Notes under the pieces: generated by a model
The model's database searches: none
Told to the model about the DNA's origin: nothing
Seen by the model: only the letters and a program-made list of their open reading frames with translations
Position numbers and translations under genes: made by a program
NCBI GenBank assembly: GCA_902563555.1
Contig: CACEXM010000001.1
Coordinates: 152,758-216,757, forward strand
Source of the DNA: an uncultured Pelagibacteraceae bacterium
GTDB taxonomy: Bacteria > Pseudomonadota > Alphaproteobacteria > Pelagibacterales > Pelagibacteraceae
Reading direction: 5' to 3'
Length of the DNA stretch: 64,000 nt
In this document: one piece after another, positions 4,086 through 13,550 of the stretch
How positions within the stretch are numbered: the first letter of the stretch is position 1
Layout: each line of letters opens with the position of its first letter

Positions 4086-5210
4086 CTATCTTTGATTTAA
4101 TTGTAGAACTTTTCTGTGTTTATTACCTTTGTAGCTCGCTAAAGGTCTAATTAGTTTATTTGCAGCATGTTGTTCCATTATATGTGCTGACCACCCTGTA
4201 ATTCTCGAAATTACAAATATTGGTGTAAAAAAATCAGTGTCAAAACCCATTAAATGATAAGTCGGTCCAGTGGGATAATCTACGTTAGGGTGTATGTTTT
4301 TTTTATCAATCATAACTCTTTCAACAATATCGTAAATTTTTTCAAATTTTTTGTCTTTTTTGATCTTCGCTACTTTAGCAAAATATTTCCTCATCGTAGG
4401 GACTCTCGAGTCGCCAGATTTATAAACTCTATGACCAAAACCCATTACAACTTCTTTTTTGGCAAGTGCATTGTTTATCCACTTTAATGCATTTTTTGGA
4501 CTTTTTATTTTATTCATCATATGCATAACTTCTTCATTAGCTCCACCATGAAGAGGACCTTTTAAACTTGCTATTGCACCAGTTATAGCTCCGTGAATAT
4601 CAGACAAACTACTTGTTATAGTTCTTGCTGTGAATGTTGAAACATTGAAACTGTGTTCAGCATATAAAATTAAAGATACATCAAATGCTTTTACAATTTC
4701 TTTTTGAGGAACTTTTCCAAAGCACATATGAAAAAAATTTTCAGACATATTTAAATTTTTTTTTGGTTTGATTATATTTTTACCTTTTCTTATTCTATAA
4801 AACGCAGCTAAGGCAGTTGGTGTTTTCGCTAAAATTCTAACTGCTTTTCTCATGTTCGCCTCAGGTGAAGAGTCTGTTGTTTCTTTATCTTCTAAACCCA
4901 TAATGCTGACCGCAGTTCTAGCCACATCCATTGGATGCGATTTCTTTGGCATTTTTTTTATGAATGAGTAAAGATCTTTTGAGAGATTTCTATTATTTCT
5001 CTCTTCTTTTTCAAATTTTTTTAATTCTATTGAGTTTGGTAAATCTTTATTCAAAATTAAATAGGCGACCTCTTCAAATTTACAATATTCGCATAGATCT
5101 TGTGCTGCATAACCTCTATAGGTAAGAGAATTTATCTCTGGCATAACTTTTGAAACCTCTGTTTCATCAACCACAATTCCAAGTAAGCCTTTTTTTATGT
5201 CATCTGTCAT
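4086..5210 (-). CDS. prpC: 2-methylcitrate synthase / citrate synthase family
   Basis: Citrate synthase motifs (HGGANEEVMHMM, GFGHRVYKSGDSRVP); overlaps prpB and is clustered with prpD. Confidence 0.9.
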   Translation of the reverse strand: MTDDIKKGLLGIVVDETEVSKVMPEINSLTYRGYAAQDLCEYCKFEEVAYLILNKDLPNSIELKKFEKEERNNRNLSKDLYSFIKKMPKKSHPMDVARTAVSIMGLEDKETTDSSPEANMRKAVRILAKTPTALAAFYRIRKGKNIIKPKKNLNMSENFFHMCFGKVPQKEIVKAFDVSLILYAEHSFNVSTFTARTITSSLSDIHGAITGAIASLKGPLHGGANEEVMHMMNKIKSPKNALKWINNALAKKEVVMGFGHRVYKSGDSRVPTMRKYFAKVAKIKKDKKFEKIYDIVERVMIDKKNIHPNVDYPTGPTYHLMGFDTDFFTPIFVISRITGWSAHIMEQHAANKLIRPLASYKGNKHRKVLQLNQR

Positions 5211-6106
5211 TATTCATGTCCATCAGTATTAAAATTATAAATACTTTCGTCTAAACTATTATATTTTTCATAATCCACAAGCTCGTATAACCTTTTTCTA
5301 GTTTGCATCTTATCTATAATATTGTTTTGGTGTCCATTTGCATAAATGTCTCTTAATCCATCTTCAACATTTTTCATTGCTAATCTTTGAGTGGTGACTG
5401 GATAAATAACTATATTGTAACCAAATTGTTCTAATTCTTTAAAATTAAACAACTTGGTTTTTCCAAATTCTGTCATATTCGCTAATAAATAGCATGTAAG
5501 CTCTTTTCTTACTTTTTCAAAATCTTTTTCATCATGTAAAGCTTCTGGAAAAATAATTTCAGCGCCAGCATCGACATAAGCTTTACATCTATCAATCATC
5601 TTATCTATTCCCTCTACACTTTTTGCATCTGACCTAGCTATAATTTTAAAATTCTTATCTTTTCTAGCTGAAACACATTCTTTAATTTTTTTGACCATGG
5701 CATCAGTAGAAATCAGCTCTTTATTATCTAGATGACCACATCTTTTCCTTTCAATCTGATCTTCTATATGTACAGCTGAAATTCCAAATTCCTCAAAAGT
5801 TTCAATTGTTTCTTTACAAGATTTAAAACCTGTATCTATATCAACAATAGTTGGAAGATTTGTAACTCTAGATATTAAATATGATCTTGTACTTACATCC
5901 TGTAGTGTTGTTAATCCAATATCAGGAAAACCAAGATCATTAGCCATAACACCACCTGAAATATAAACTGCATCATATCCAATTTCCTCGATAAGTTTTG
6001 CTGTTAAAGGATTATAAGCACCAGGAACTCTTAAAATTTTGTTTGATTTTAATTTCTTATCGAAATCTTCTCTTTTTTGATTTGGTTCTTTTTCAACGAA
6101 ATGCAT
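5210..6106 (-). CDS. prpB: Methylisocitrate lyase
   Basis: PEP mutase/isocitrate lyase family (RVPGAYNPLTAKLIEEIGYDAVYISGG, HIEDQIERKRCGHLDNKEL). Confidence 0.9.
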   Translation of the reverse strand: MHFVEKEPNQKREDFDKKLKSNKILRVPGAYNPLTAKLIEEIGYDAVYISGGVMANDLGFPDIGLTTLQDVSTRSYLISRVTNLPTIVDIDTGFKSCKETIETFEEFGISAVHIEDQIERKRCGHLDNKELISTDAMVKKIKECVSARKDKNFKIIARSDAKSVEGIDKMIDRCKAYVDAGAEIIFPEALHDEKDFEKVRKELTCYLLANMTEFGKTKLFNFKELEQFGYNIVIYPVTTQRLAMKNVEDGLRDIYANGHQNNIIDKMQTRKRLYELVDYEKYNSLDESIYNFNTDGHE

Positions 6107-8417: not shown

Positions 8418-9041
8418 ATGAAACATATTGATTTAAAAAATTCTCAAATTAATTTAAGAAATAAATTTTTAAAATCAGGCGTAAAAATGATTGGTCCTGA
8501 AACAATTTTTTTTTCTAGTGATACTCAAATAGGCAAAAACGTAACAATTGAACCTTATGTTGTTATTGGGTCTAAAGTAAAAATTGGAAATGATGTGCTC
8601 ATTAAATCTTTTTCTCATCTTGAGTCATGCCAAGTTGAGAATAAAGTTGAGATTGGACCTTATGCAAGAATAAGACCAAATACAATTTTAAAAGAAGGTT
8701 CAAAAGTAGGAAATTTTGTAGAAGTTAAAAAAAGTGTAATTGGTAAAAAGTCAAAAGTAAATCATTTAACATACATCGGGGATAGTAAAATTGGTAAATC
8801 TGTGAATGTTGGCGCAGGAACAATTACTTGTAATTATGATGGAAAAAAAAAATATGTAACTAATATAAAAGATAAAGTATTTATAGGATCAAATTCATCG
8901 CTTGTAGCCCCAATAACTATTGGTGAAGAAAGTACAGTTGGAGCTGGTTCTGTTATAACAAGAAATGTAAAAAAAAAATCATTAGCTTTAACAAGAGGTG
9001 AACAAAAAGAAATTAAGAATTACAAAATTAGAAAAAAATAA
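8418..9041 (+). CDS. glmU: GlmU C-terminal-type left-handed beta-helix acetyltransferase (no uridyltransferase domain)
   Basis: Hexapeptide repeats and GlmU-specific GPYARIRPNTILKEGSKVGNFVEVKKS, NHLTYIGDSKIGKSVNVGAGTITCNYDG; only 207 aa; overlaps glmS start (TAATG). Confidence 0.85.
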   Translation: MKHIDLKNSQINLRNKFLKSGVKMIGPETIFFSSDTQIGKNVTIEPYVVIGSKVKIGNDVLIKSFSHLESCQVENKVEIGPYARIRPNTILKEGSKVGNFVEVKKSVIGKKSKVNHLTYIGDSKIGKSVNVGAGTITCNYDGKKKYVTNIKDKVFIGSNSSLVAPITIGEESTVGAGSVITRNVKKKSLALTRGEQKEIKNYKIRKK

Positions 9042-10861
9042 TGTGTGGAATTATTGGAATTAATAGTAACAAGCCAGTATCATCAGCGATAATTAATTCA
9101 TTAAAAAAATTAGAATACAGAGGTTACGATTCTGCGGGAATAGCTACTTTATCAAGTGGCTTGATCAATGAGATTAAATCTGAGGGTAGGGTAGATAATT
9201 TAGAAAAAAATTCACTTGTCCAAAAAATGGAGGGAACTATTGGCATCGGTCATGTCAGATGGGCAACACATGGAGTACCTAGTAGTTTGAATGCTCATCC
9301 GCATTCTTCACAGAATGTTTCAGTGGTACATAATGGAATAATTGAAAATTCAACTATACTTAAAAAATTTTTAATTGGTAAAGGGCATAAATTTAAATCT
9401 CAAACAGATACAGAAGTTATTGTTCATTTAATAACCGAACACTTAAAAAAAGAAAATATAATAAACTCTATAAAAAAAACCCTTAAGTTACTTCATGGAA
9501 GTTTTGCCTTAGGAATTATCTTTAAAGATCAACCAGATCTAATTATAGGCGCAAGACGGGGCTCACCTTTAGCTGTCGGTTATGGTCCAAATGAAAACTA
9601 TTTAGGTTCAGACTCTTATGCTTTGAAATCAATGACGAACAAAATTACTTATCTAAACGATGGTGAATTTTGCGTGATTAAAAAAGATTTAGTAGAGTTT
9701 TTTGATGAGAAAGGAAAAAAAATAAACAAAAAAGTTTTAGAGTTATCGAGTGAAAACCAAAAATATGACAAAGGTGATTACAAACATTTCATGGCAAAAG
9801 AGATAGATGAACAACCAATGTCAATAAAAAATGGAATAAAAGAATATTTGGATACAGCAAACAATGACATTAATATATTTAATTTTCCGTGGAAGGTCGA
9901 AGATATTTCATCTGTAACATTGATAGGATGTGGCACGGCATATCATTCGTGTTTAATGGCTAAATATTGGTTTGAGGAATTAACTTCTTTAGATGTGAGT
10001 GTAGATATAGCTTCAGAATTTAGGTACAGGAAAAATAGATTTAAAAAAGATAATTTATACATTTTTGTATCACAATCAGGTGAAACTGCTGATACTTATG
10101 CGGCTTTAGATTTATGTAATAAAAATGGTATGAAAACTTGTGGCGTTGTTAATGTTATTGAGAGCTCAATAGCAAGAGACTCCAAATTTGTTTTACCAAT
10201 TCATTGTGGTACTGAGATAGGTGTTGCTTCAACAAAAGCCTTTTTGGGTCAGATGTTGATATTATATATTCTTTCTTTAAAAATTGGATTAATTAGAGGA
10301 GATATTAACAAAAAAGAGTTTTCCAAAAAATTAAAGGAGTTAAAAAATTTACCAAAATTGTTAGAACAAACCTTATTGATAGATAATAAAATACATAATA
10401 TTTCCAGCACTTTTAATGAAGCAAAAGGTTCTATGTTTTTAGGCAGAGGTTTTTCTTATCCGATAGCATTAGAGGGTGCATTAAAATTAAAAGAGTTATC
10501 CTATGTTCATGCTGAAGGTTACCCAGCAGGAGAAATGAAACATGGACCTTTGGCTTTGATTGAGGAAGGAATGCCTGTTGTTGTGTTGGCGCCCAGAGAT
10601 AATTACTACAAAAAAACTATTTCTAATATGCAGGAAGTTATAGCGAGAGGAGCAAAGGTTTTGCTAATTACCAATAAAAGTAAAGATGAAATATTTTCTG
10701 AAAATATTTGGGAAACTATTGAAGTTGAGACAGCTAATGAAGACCTTTTGCCATTTCTTTTAACGATACCTTTACAAAAATTAGCTTATTATTCGGCATT
10801 AAAGAAAGGTTATGATATTGATAAGCCTAGAAATCTAGCCAAATCAGTTACTGTAGAGTAA
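9041..10861 (+). CDS. glmS: Glutamine--fructose-6-phosphate aminotransferase
   Basis: MCGIIGI N-terminus, SIS domains, C-terminus DKPRNLAKSVTVE. Confidence 0.98.
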   Translation: MCGIIGINSNKPVSSAIINSLKKLEYRGYDSAGIATLSSGLINEIKSEGRVDNLEKNSLVQKMEGTIGIGHVRWATHGVPSSLNAHPHSSQNVSVVHNGIIENSTILKKFLIGKGHKFKSQTDTEVIVHLITEHLKKENIINSIKKTLKLLHGSFALGIIFKDQPDLIIGARRGSPLAVGYGPNENYLGSDSYALKSMTNKITYLNDGEFCVIKKDLVEFFDEKGKKINKKVLELSSENQKYDKGDYKHFMAKEIDEQPMSIKNGIKEYLDTANNDINIFNFPWKVEDISSVTLIGCGTAYHSCLMAKYWFEELTSLDVSVDIASEFRYRKNRFKKDNLYIFVSQSGETADTYAALDLCNKNGMKTCGVVNVIESSIARDSKFVLPIHCGTEIGVASTKAFLGQMLILYILSLKIGLIRGDINKKEFSKKLKELKNLPKLLEQTLLIDNKIHNISSTFNEAKGSMFLGRGFSYPIALEGALKLKELSYVHAEGYPAGEMKHGPLALIEEGMPVVVLAPRDNYYKKTISNMQEVIARGAKVLLITNKSKDEIFSENIWETIEVETANEDLLPFLLTIPLQKLAYYSALKKGYDIDKPRNLAKSVTVE

Positions 10862-10904
10862 TAGTTGTATTTACTAAACAAGATGTTTTTAATAGGGTCT
10901 TTCT

Positions 10905-11186
10905 ATGAAAATAATTACAAAAATAATATCTATTCTTTTATTCTTGATAGTTACAGCTTCAGCAAATCCTTTTGGTCCTGGATATTTTCAAAATACAAAT
11001 CCTTTTGGACCAGGTTATGTGCAGCAAAGTAATCCTTTTGGACAAGGCTACACTCAAAATTCAAATCCTTTTGGTCAGGGATATGTTCAAGATAGCAATC
11101 CTTTTGGCCAAGGTTATATACAAGACTCAAATCCCTTTGGTCCTGGATATGTACAAGATAAATCTGTTTTTGGTTTTGGAAACTAA
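10905..11186 (+). CDS. Small secreted repeat protein, six tandem 11-aa NPFGxGYxQxx repeats
   Basis: Signal peptide MKIITKIISILLFLIVTASA followed by 6 x 11 aa repeats and a terminal SVFGFGN. Confidence 0.85.
   Translation: MKIITKIISILLFLIVTASANPFGPGYFQNTNPFGPGYVQQSNPFGQGYTQNSNPFGQGYVQDSNPFGQGYIQDSNPFGPGYVQDKSVFGFGN
10965..11162 (+). repeat. In-frame 33-bp tandem repeat, 6 units
   Basis: Units read aatccttttggNccNggNtatgtNcaaNaNNN in frame; degeneracy is mainly at codon third positions and in the last two residues. Confidence 0.95.
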
Positions 11187-11204: not shown

Positions 11205-11272
11205 CATTAAAAAAAGGATATGATATAGTTAAGCCTAGAAATTTAGCTAAGTCAGTTACAGTTGAATAATAG
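11205..11272 (+). pseudogene. Detached second copy of the 3' end of glmS (last ~22 codons)
   Basis: Encodes LKKGYDIVKPRNLAKSVTVE*, versus LKKGYDIDKPRNLAKSVTVE* in glmS at 10797-10864; 58/68 nt identical. Confidence 0.95.
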
Positions 11273-11275
11273 TCT

Positions 11276-12100
11276 GTGAAAATAAACTTTACCAAAAAAC
11301 CTAATTTTTGGCATATAGCCTCTGTCGCGCGCAATAAAAACGTAAATGATTATGAAATTTTAAACCAAGCTTTTGAACAAGATGTATTTGAAGAAGAAAA
11401 TAAAATATTTTTAAAGAAATTTATTGATTGTTTTAAAAATGTTAAGAATATTAATTCACAACTTTATCAAGATGTATTTGCATCATTTGTTATTGGAAAC
11501 CAGTTTGATAAAACATTTTTAGAATTTGGTGCGACAGATGGTTTAGAATTGTCTAATTCATTTATGCTTGAAAATACTTTAAATTGGAGTGGTGTTTTAT
11601 CTGAACCAAGTCCACAATGGCATGAAGTATTAAAAGAAAACAGAAAATATACGAAAATTATAAAAAAATGTATTTGGTCAGAGAGTGGAAAAATTTTAGA
11701 TTTTTTTATGTCAGATAGAGGTAATTTTTCTACTTTAAACGAATTTATTGATAGTGATAAGTATTCTATGCCATTGAATACTGAATCAAGAAAAAAAGCT
11801 GGTAAGTTGATAACTGTAGAAACAATATCGTTAAATGATGTAATTAAAGAATATTTTAATAATATATCACCATCATATATTTCAATTGATACTGAGGGGT
11901 CTGAATTTAAAATTTTAGAGTCTTTTAATTTTGAAAATTATAGACCAAAAGTTTTTACAGTTGAGCATAATTTCACTGAATTACAAAGTAAAATTGATGA
12001 ATTGATGGTTTCAAAGAACTATCAAAGAATATTTAGAAAGCTAACAAGTTTTGATGCATGGTATGTATCTAAAGAAGCATTAAATGAATTAGATTTTTAG
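11276..12100 (+). CDS. FkbM-family methyltransferase (GTG start)
   Basis: FLEFGATDGLELSNSFMLENTLNWSGVLSEPSP and YISIDTEGSEFKIL are FkbM motifs. Confidence 0.85.
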   Translation: MKINFTKKPNFWHIASVARNKNVNDYEILNQAFEQDVFEEENKIFLKKFIDCFKNVKNINSQLYQDVFASFVIGNQFDKTFLEFGATDGLELSNSFMLENTLNWSGVLSEPSPQWHEVLKENRKYTKIIKKCIWSESGKILDFFMSDRGNFSTLNEFIDSDKYSMPLNTESRKKAGKLITVETISLNDVIKEYFNNISPSYISIDTEGSEFKILESFNFENYRPKVFTVEHNFTELQSKIDELMVSKNYQRIFRKLTSFDAWYVSKEALNELDF

Positions 12101-12170: not shown

Positions 12171-13550
12171 ATGAAAAATTGGAAAATTAATAGTTGGAGA
12201 AAGTATCCGGTAAAACACATTCCGGATTATTCTAATAAGAAGGAATTGGAACAAGTGTTAGGTAAAATAAAAAATTTTCCACCACTTGTTTTTGCTGGTG
12301 AAACAAGACACTTAAAACAACAACTTGCTGAGGTAGTAGATGGTAAAGCTTTTTTACTTCAGGGAGGAGATTGTGCAGAGAGTTTTGCTGAATTTAATCC
12401 AGATAATATTAGAGATACATTCAAACTAATTTTGCAAATGTCGTTGGTTTTAACTTATTCAGCATCACTTCCAGTAATCAAACTTGGAAGAATAGCAGGA
12501 CAGTTTGCTAAACCAAGAAGTGCACCGACTGAAAAACAAGGAAATTTAGAACTTCCAAGCTACTTAGGTGATAATGTAAATGGTATTGAGTTTAATAAAA
12601 AAGCAAGAGAGCACGATCCAAAAAGACTTTTTAGAGCTTACTCACAATCTGCATCAACTTTGAACTTGTTAAGGGCATTTTCAAAAGGAGGTTTTGCAGA
12701 CTTAAATAAAGTTCATTTATGGAATTTAGATTATATCAAAAAAAGTCCGCAAGCTAAGAAATTTAAAGATTTAGAAGACAAGATTGCTGATGCATTGGCT
12801 TTTATGTCAGCGTGTGGAATTACTTCAGACTTTAATAACAGATTATATACAGTTAATTTTTGGACATCACATGAGGCTTTACATCTACCTTTTGAGGAAA
12901 GTATGACAAGAATTGATTCCACAACTGGAGAATACCACGATACATCTGCACACTTTGTGTGGATTGGTGATAGAACTCGACAGTTAGATGGGGGTCATGT
13001 TGAATTTTGTAGAGGTATAGAAAATCCAATAGGAATAAAATGTGGGCCTACAAGTAAACCAGAAGAAATAGTAAAAATTTGTAACTTAATAAATCCAAAA
13101 AATGAAAAAGGTAAAATTACTCTTATCTCAAGATTTGGACACGACTCAGTTGAAAAATTTTTACCAAAACTCGTAAGAACCATTAAGAAAGAAGGTTTGA
13201 ACGTAATTTGGTCGTGCGATCCAATGCATGGAAACACAATCAAATCTACAACTGGATTTAAAACTAGACCATTTAACAGGGTTTTAAAAGAAGTAAGAGA
13301 TGTATTTGCAGTTCATCAAAGTGAGGGTTCGTACGCAGGAGGCTTACATATTGAAATGACTGGTCAAAATGTGACTGAATGCACAGGTGGTGCAAGAAAA
13401 ATTTCTGATGCTGATTTATCAAGCAGATACCACACCCATTGTGATCCTAGGCTTAATGCAGATCAAGCCTTAGAATTAGCATTTTTAATATCAGATGAGA
13501 TTAAAAAGAATAGCAGCTATTCGAAAAATTCTATTCAAGTGGCATCTTGA
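12171..13550 (+). CDS. 3-deoxy-7-phosphoheptulonate synthase, class II
   Basis: Plant-type DAHP synthase motifs (FLLQGGDCAESFAEF, WSCDPMHGNTI, GGLHIEMTGQNVTECTGG); ATG at 12171 preferred over TTG at 12165. Confidence 0.93.
   Translation: MKNWKINSWRKYPVKHIPDYSNKKELEQVLGKIKNFPPLVFAGETRHLKQQLAEVVDGKAFLLQGGDCAESFAEFNPDNIRDTFKLILQMSLVLTYSASLPVIKLGRIAGQFAKPRSAPTEKQGNLELPSYLGDNVNGIEFNKKAREHDPKRLFRAYSQSASTLNLLRAFSKGGFADLNKVHLWNLDYIKKSPQAKKFKDLEDKIADALAFMSACGITSDFNNRLYTVNFWTSHEALHLPFEESMTRIDSTTGEYHDTSAHFVWIGDRTRQLDGGHVEFCRGIENPIGIKCGPTSKPEEIVKICNLINPKNEKGKITLISRFGHDSVEKFLPKLVRTIKKEGLNVIWSCDPMHGNTIKSTTGFKTRPFNRVLKEVRDVFAVHQSEGSYAGGLHIEMTGQNVTECTGGARKISDADLSSRYHTHCDPRLNADQALELAFLISDEIKKNSSYSKNSIQVAS

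Follow-up and report, generated by a model that had tools for sequence, protein, structure and literature searches.

A mobile family of exported-type 11-residue repeat proteins in streamlined marine bacteria and a phage lineage, with a possible role in phage exclusion

The 64,000-nucleotide stretch of Pelagibacteraceae DNA analyzed here (the window) encodes a small protein with six 11-residue repeats that belongs to a real, unnamed family, which we define by the pattern xPxxxGYxQxx. The gene is mobile and is found in phage genomes and in integrative islands of unrelated marine bacteria. We tentatively read its product as an exported, probably disordered, multivalent protein of the cell envelope that serves most likely in phage exclusion, a reading that we favor while holding it at somewhat under even confidence. 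SAR11, OM43-type methylotrophs, and picocyanobacteria rank with the most numerous cells of the ocean and have shed most non-essential genes, and some of these streamlined cells share with a phage a tiny exported-type repeat protein that is unnamed in protein-family databases. Should this protein decide phage entry, it would offer a compact and testable way into phage resistance in cells that are largely without known defences. If its role is not exclusion, it still represents a mobile family with an unusual evolution, marked by a fixed copy number, a uniform variable tripeptide, and exchange of arrays.

The repeat protein and its relatives

The open reading frame occupies positions 10905 to 11186 of the plus strand, begins with ATG, and encodes 93 aa in an intact frame with homologues elsewhere. 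A signal peptide, MKIITKIISILLFLIVTASA (10905–10964), was assigned by eye with a predicted cut after ASA, leaving a mature part of 73 aa. Six 33-bp units, each encoding 11 aa of the form NPFG(P/Q)GYxQxx, follow from 10965 to 11162 and read, in order, NPFGPGYFQNT, NPFGPGYVQQS, NPFGQGYTQNS, NPFGQGYVQDS, NPFGQGYIQDS, and NPFGPGYVQDK. The C-terminal tail SVFGFGN is encoded at 11163–11183. Frame, repeats, and tail correspond in both sequence and coordinates to the original prediction. TRF recovered the 33-bp unit in 6.0 copies (70% matches) together with a stronger 66-bp period (22 aa, 80% matches). The period-11 column consensus is 55 of 66, whereas none of 5000 shuffles exceeded 30, which rules out chance or a compositional artefact as the source of the array. 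Between units, 51 of 124 codon pairs that encode the same residue differ synonymously, indicating that the peptide pattern is kept and not the DNA; with the retention of G-Y-x-Q and the C-terminus by homologues, this supports the earlier suggestion of selection on the peptide.

In every homologue a hydrophobic leader precedes the first repeat, with AXA-type sites judged by eye among the homologues, and in the window protein, as in the family at large, xPxxxGYxQxx units follow the leader within a few residues. These leaders, along with the conserved G-Y-x-Q and C-terminus, agree with the prediction of a secreted protein. Two AlphaFold models, built with five or seven homologues, gave block pLDDT values of 31–45 for the mature chain; the only part with higher pLDDT was a helix at residues 2–18 in the leader, and no fold was found. 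A disordered mature chain is compatible with these models, although shallow alignments also lower AlphaFold confidence.

Homologues were recovered, so the concern raised at the outset that the protein might have none anywhere can be set aside. Two are SAR11 single-cell genomes, AG-914-A09 (L002; G1445 has the same coordinates and was counted as the same genome) and AG-899-G21 (L003), both with the gene at the same glmS site as the window. Four are Methylophilaceae (LSUCC0665, which is L004, and L046, L047, and L048), two are picocyanobacteria (AG-439-B13, which is L005, and L049), and three are viral contigs (L062, L063, and L064). L063 and L064 are 99.6–99.9% identical across most of the length that they share, and L062 is closely related to them, so the viral contigs represent one phage lineage. 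The gene is rare, with matches in 1 of 397 genomes sampled in the family of the window, 4 of 150 Methylophilaceae, and 2 of 251 in the picocyanobacterial family, and it is single copy in the source assembly (77.9% complete). Broader samples at class and phylum level gave no true match outside these three groups, and none of 50,697 phage records searched carries the gene. Pfam, NCBIfam, and PHROG yielded no convincing family match, described exclusion and defence families included, and the peptide strings occur in none of the papers searched; a PADLOC search covered the neighbouring genes of the loci.

Several apparent relatives were rejected. Matches to VWA proteins of Proteus/Providencia plasmids (37–38% identity, E 2e-6 and weaker) were taken as low-complexity resemblance, and a PDB sequence hit to photosystem CP47 at E 0.4 is noise. 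An alphaproteobacterial match (G904) spans a DNA repeat in which the open frames specify repeats of an unrelated kind, the frame of a fifth listed Methylophilaceae match (G465, locus L014) has a stop and holds a Lys/Pro/Ala repeat, and viral L070 and L071 encode proline-rich GYAQPPAPAP proteins. A eukaryotic-type NPF ligand of EH domains was also considered; NPF is not conserved (NPL, SPY, and NPY occur in homologues) and the Pfam NPF motif is below cut-off.

Insertion sites, islands, and phage carriage

In the window, the gene lies behind glmS (9041–10861), the 3′ end of which is the insertion site. A second, diverged glmS 3′ end at 11205–11273, which matches 10797–10865 at 59 of 69 aligned bases (∼86%), bounds the repeat-gene cassette on its other side. 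An FkbM-family methyltransferase (11276–12100) follows as a second cargo, and then a class II DAHP synthase (12171–13550) as the conserved right flank, all on the plus strand. The order of cargos and the duplicated glmS ends thus indicate that the original description of the repeat gene as the sole cargo of a glmS insertion is true of one cassette only, which runs from the glmS stop to the second glmS 3′ end, and not of the insertion as a whole.

Among 29 other SAR11 loci examined, the site is empty in 26, where the DAHP synthase starts 31–67 bp after glmS, and occupied in three, namely L030 and L034 (each with the FkbM methyltransferase alone) and L029. On the minus strand of L029, an exported-looking protein of ∼110 aa, MRFKILLSIFFTFFVINANAGYIKGLGANSCGSV..., lies between the two flanking genes and is followed by further sequence. 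Insertions at this site are thus occasional and involve at least three distinct cargos. Gene order is glmS, repeat gene, glmS 3′ copy, FkbM in the window; glmS, FkbM (5032–5850), glmS 3′ copy (5854–5957), repeat gene in L003; and glmS, repeat gene in L002. Because cassette order differs between genomes, each cargo seems to move together with the glmS end upstream of it and to be added in either order, and the cargos appear to have been placed by recombination in the glmS 3′ end, through either a recombinase or homology-facilitated recombination. Two glmS-end matches occur only in the genome of the window and in G153 among the 397 family genomes. No recombinase was seen near the SAR11 insertion. 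Tn7-type insertion behind glmS was considered and rejected, as no transposase was seen and the glmS end is itself duplicated. Between the window and L003, the FkbM genes share 72% nucleotide identity, below that of the flanking core genes.

Unrelated bacteria carry the gene in recognizable integrative elements. In the cyanobacterial locus L051, identical 76-bp copies of tRNA-Thr(ggt) located 6.06 kb apart enclose it, and a tyrosine recombinase adjoins one copy. The methylotroph L046 (G415) carries it in an island of ∼15.6 kb, delimited by a PF00589 integrase and by a 68-bp repeat that corresponds to the 3′ part of tRNA-Met(cat). Also encoded in this island are an MmeI-type restriction enzyme, a PD-(D/E)XK nuclease, and a T5orf172 protein. 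Both loci thus show the tRNA direct repeats and tyrosine recombinase that define the tRNA-integrated islands, or tycheposons, of picocyanobacteria and Methylophilaceae, and resemble them as gene vehicles; a Methylophilaceae tycheposon has been described that runs from tRNA-Met(cat) to glmS (PMC10872708). The window differs in that its repeat is the glmS 3′ end, with no recombinase visible nearby. Restriction genes also neighbour the gene in L047 (BpuJI and C5 methylases) and adjoin it in L048 (GmrSD). A 20-bp tRNA-Arg repeat in L050 was treated as weak, as it corresponds to part of the D-arm rather than to the 3′ end of the tRNA.

The phage copies sit among DNA-metabolism genes (DNA polymerase, C5 methylase, and an ATPase), and no lysis cassette is visible around them. 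L064 also carries a terminase, for which pelagiphage HTVC027P (42%) is among the nearest records. Phage carriage of the family, as judged from these three contigs of one lineage, is the mobile context expected of superinfection exclusion genes at the family level; in the window itself, mobility is evident only through the glmS duplication.

Variation among members and possible functions

The window protein and every proteobacterial and phage member contain exactly six units, and the cyanobacterial members four (L005) and two (L049). In six-unit cellular members, GYxQ never varies at G, Y, or Q, and position 2 is almost always P; the phage has one A there. Conservation is highest in the last unit and tail, GYVQDK(S/G)(V/I)F: GYVQDKSVFGF is common to the window and its SAR11 and methylotroph homologues, GYVQDKSVFGL is found in a cyanobacterium, and the phage has GYVQNKEIF. 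Positions 3–5, in contrast, are mostly uniform inside each protein (FG[P/Q], LMP, FLD, LAD, FGD, YSP, or YGD) and vary between proteins, with within-protein identities of 0.95, 0.78, and 0.79 at positions 3, 4, and 5 versus between-protein identities of 0.40, 0.15, and 0.26. Positions 8, 10, and 11 track the repeat index, with identities of 0.53, 0.51, and 0.33 for the same index versus 0.26, 0.32, and 0.12 for different indices. Since residues specific to individual units are retained even where the tripeptide has changed in every unit, the array has not simply been re-amplified.

Comparison of SAR11 members suggested how such changes may arise. The window protein and L003 differ at 15 of 18 residues in positions 3–5 and at 7 of 48 elsewhere (Fisher P = 3e-7, a test that presumes independent repeats, which gene conversion would violate). 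The L003 gene is a mosaic: its upstream region and leader match the window (leader 95%), whereas its array is 95% identical to that of L002 and 71% to that of the window. In their core genes, L002 and L003 share just 76–80% identity; the array alone has therefore been swapped between SAR11 lineages, with leader and tail left in place.

Carriage of the family by a phage and by mobile islands suggested to us that the protein probably acts outside the cell, perhaps in phage exclusion. This reading also draws on the occurrence of the family in two proteobacterial classes, cyanobacteria, and phage while most relatives lack it, on the restriction neighbours, on a second exported repeat protein beside it in two methylotroph loci, on the uniform tripeptide, and on the mosaic L003 gene. 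The exported chain would most likely serve as a multivalent ligand, either in the periplasm or on the outside of the cell. Every unit would present the same variable tripeptide at positions 3–5, held between a near-invariant N/S-P and G-Y-x-Q, so that one protein might amount to six copies of one contact, and array exchange could change that contact as a block. The most probable gain, for the phage or the host cell, would be to keep out competing phages, with the chain masking or jamming a receptor in the envelope or a component of DNA entry. The analysis shows the family, its exported-type architecture, fixed copy number, mobility, phage carriage, and array exchange, and from these disorder, location, multivalent binding, and exclusion are inferred; the restriction neighbours and phage carriage amount to guilt by association, and many island and phage genes serve other ends. 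The four and two units of the cyanobacterial copies, and carriage by only three phage contigs of one lineage, also weigh against this reading. Cor of phi80 and HK022, Llp of T5, Sp of T4, and Ltp of TP-J34 are phage-encoded envelope proteins of superinfection exclusion. The six-repeat protein is like them as a small, phage-borne accessory protein that is predicted by eye to be exported, that would act at the envelope, and that persists in host genomes, as some of them do. It is unlike them in that they are lipoproteins, membrane proteins, or folded proteins and not six 11-residue repeats, and no sequence relation to them was found. The resemblance to an exclusion protein is thus at most one of inferred role, and by sequence the protein falls in no described exclusion family. 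Whether it might constitute a new class of exclusion factor common to abundant streamlined ocean bacteria, namely an exported, disordered, six-contact chain whose specificity at positions 3–5 is swapped wholesale while leader and tail are kept, is a more doubtful proposal.

Other readings account for part of these data. The original prediction listed a surface coat, a phage-receptor decoy, and a matrix peptide, and of these the phage element fits the context best. A matrix, adhesive, or amyloid-like peptide, in which G/Y/F/Q/N-rich repeats let secreted chains assemble extracellularly, would suit the composition of the mature chain (G14, Q10, N9, P9, F9, and Y6 of 73), the single chain with no predicted fold, and the higher-order period of 22 aa. 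Curli CsgA is likewise a secreted protein with tandem repeats containing Gln, Asn, Gly, and Tyr, and its units of ∼22 aa equal two units here. However, the six-repeat protein has proline at position 2 of nearly every unit, a copy number fixed at six, and a rare, mobile gene borne by phage and tRNA islands. No assembly partner gene is common to the loci, Pfam and NCBIfam gave no match to curli models, and the open reading frames listed at the loci include no csg-type neighbour or export gene; we consider assembly of this kind unlikely, and that part of the prediction finds no specific support. A multi-copy precursor, cut after export into six similar toxin or signal peptides with positions 3–5 as core and GYxQxx as linker, would explain why the tripeptide is uniform within and variable between proteins, why GYxQ is conserved, and why the gene is mobile. 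It is nonetheless improbable to a similar degree, since positions 8, 10, and 11 show conserved differences between repeat indices that are unexpected of equal cores, the number is fixed at six, and the loci have no immunity, protease, modifying-enzyme, or transporter gene in common.

Phage and mobile-element carriage and the patchy distribution would also be expected of a phage-derived envelope or lysis accessory kept in islands by chance, one that is selfish along with its element and does not benefit the bacterial host. Bacterial copies, however, keep an open frame, a conserved tail, and synonymous variation between units, arrays have been exchanged in SAR11, and the phage copy has DNA-metabolism genes and no visible lysis cassette around it; this origin seems about as improbable as the previous two. 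Least probable, and in our view very unlikely, is a protein that binds a metal or another small ligand in the periplasm. Units of the acidic form NPxxDGYxQD, with D/E at position 5 in L004, L046–L048, and the phage proteins, could bind cations; however, SAR11 and L005 units have P or Q at this position and no His or Cys, and no transporter neighbour is common to the loci. Phage exclusion is therefore the reading that we retain, tentatively.

Other small proteins in the same islands

A second, unnamed exported repeat protein, NNWENS...GYVR, with the tail YDLDGNR(E/D)GY, is encoded directly downstream of the six-repeat gene or one small gene away in LSUCC0665 and G415 (L004:6258–6548 and L046:9633–9923) and also in viral contigs L057–L060 (4001–4288). 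The latter are sister phages, with a polymerase that shares 75% identity with its counterpart in the six-repeat phage lineage, and they also encode a C5 methylase; the records examined, all fragments, are without the six-repeat gene. Like the six-repeat protein, it is exported, has short tandem repeats, and is carried by methylotrophs and phages, but its unit and C-terminus differ by eye. No copy of it was found in the SAR11 and cyanobacterial genomes with the six-repeat gene. In L047 and L048, the same 216-aa gene lies directly upstream of the six-repeat gene (L047:8906–9556, in which it has no Pfam or PADLOC match, and L048:12506–13156), and these islands also share a small, exported-looking D/S/F-rich protein, ESFLDSPSLFDDSGSFNFADSNTNSG... 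(L047:5229–5573 and L048:16639–16983).
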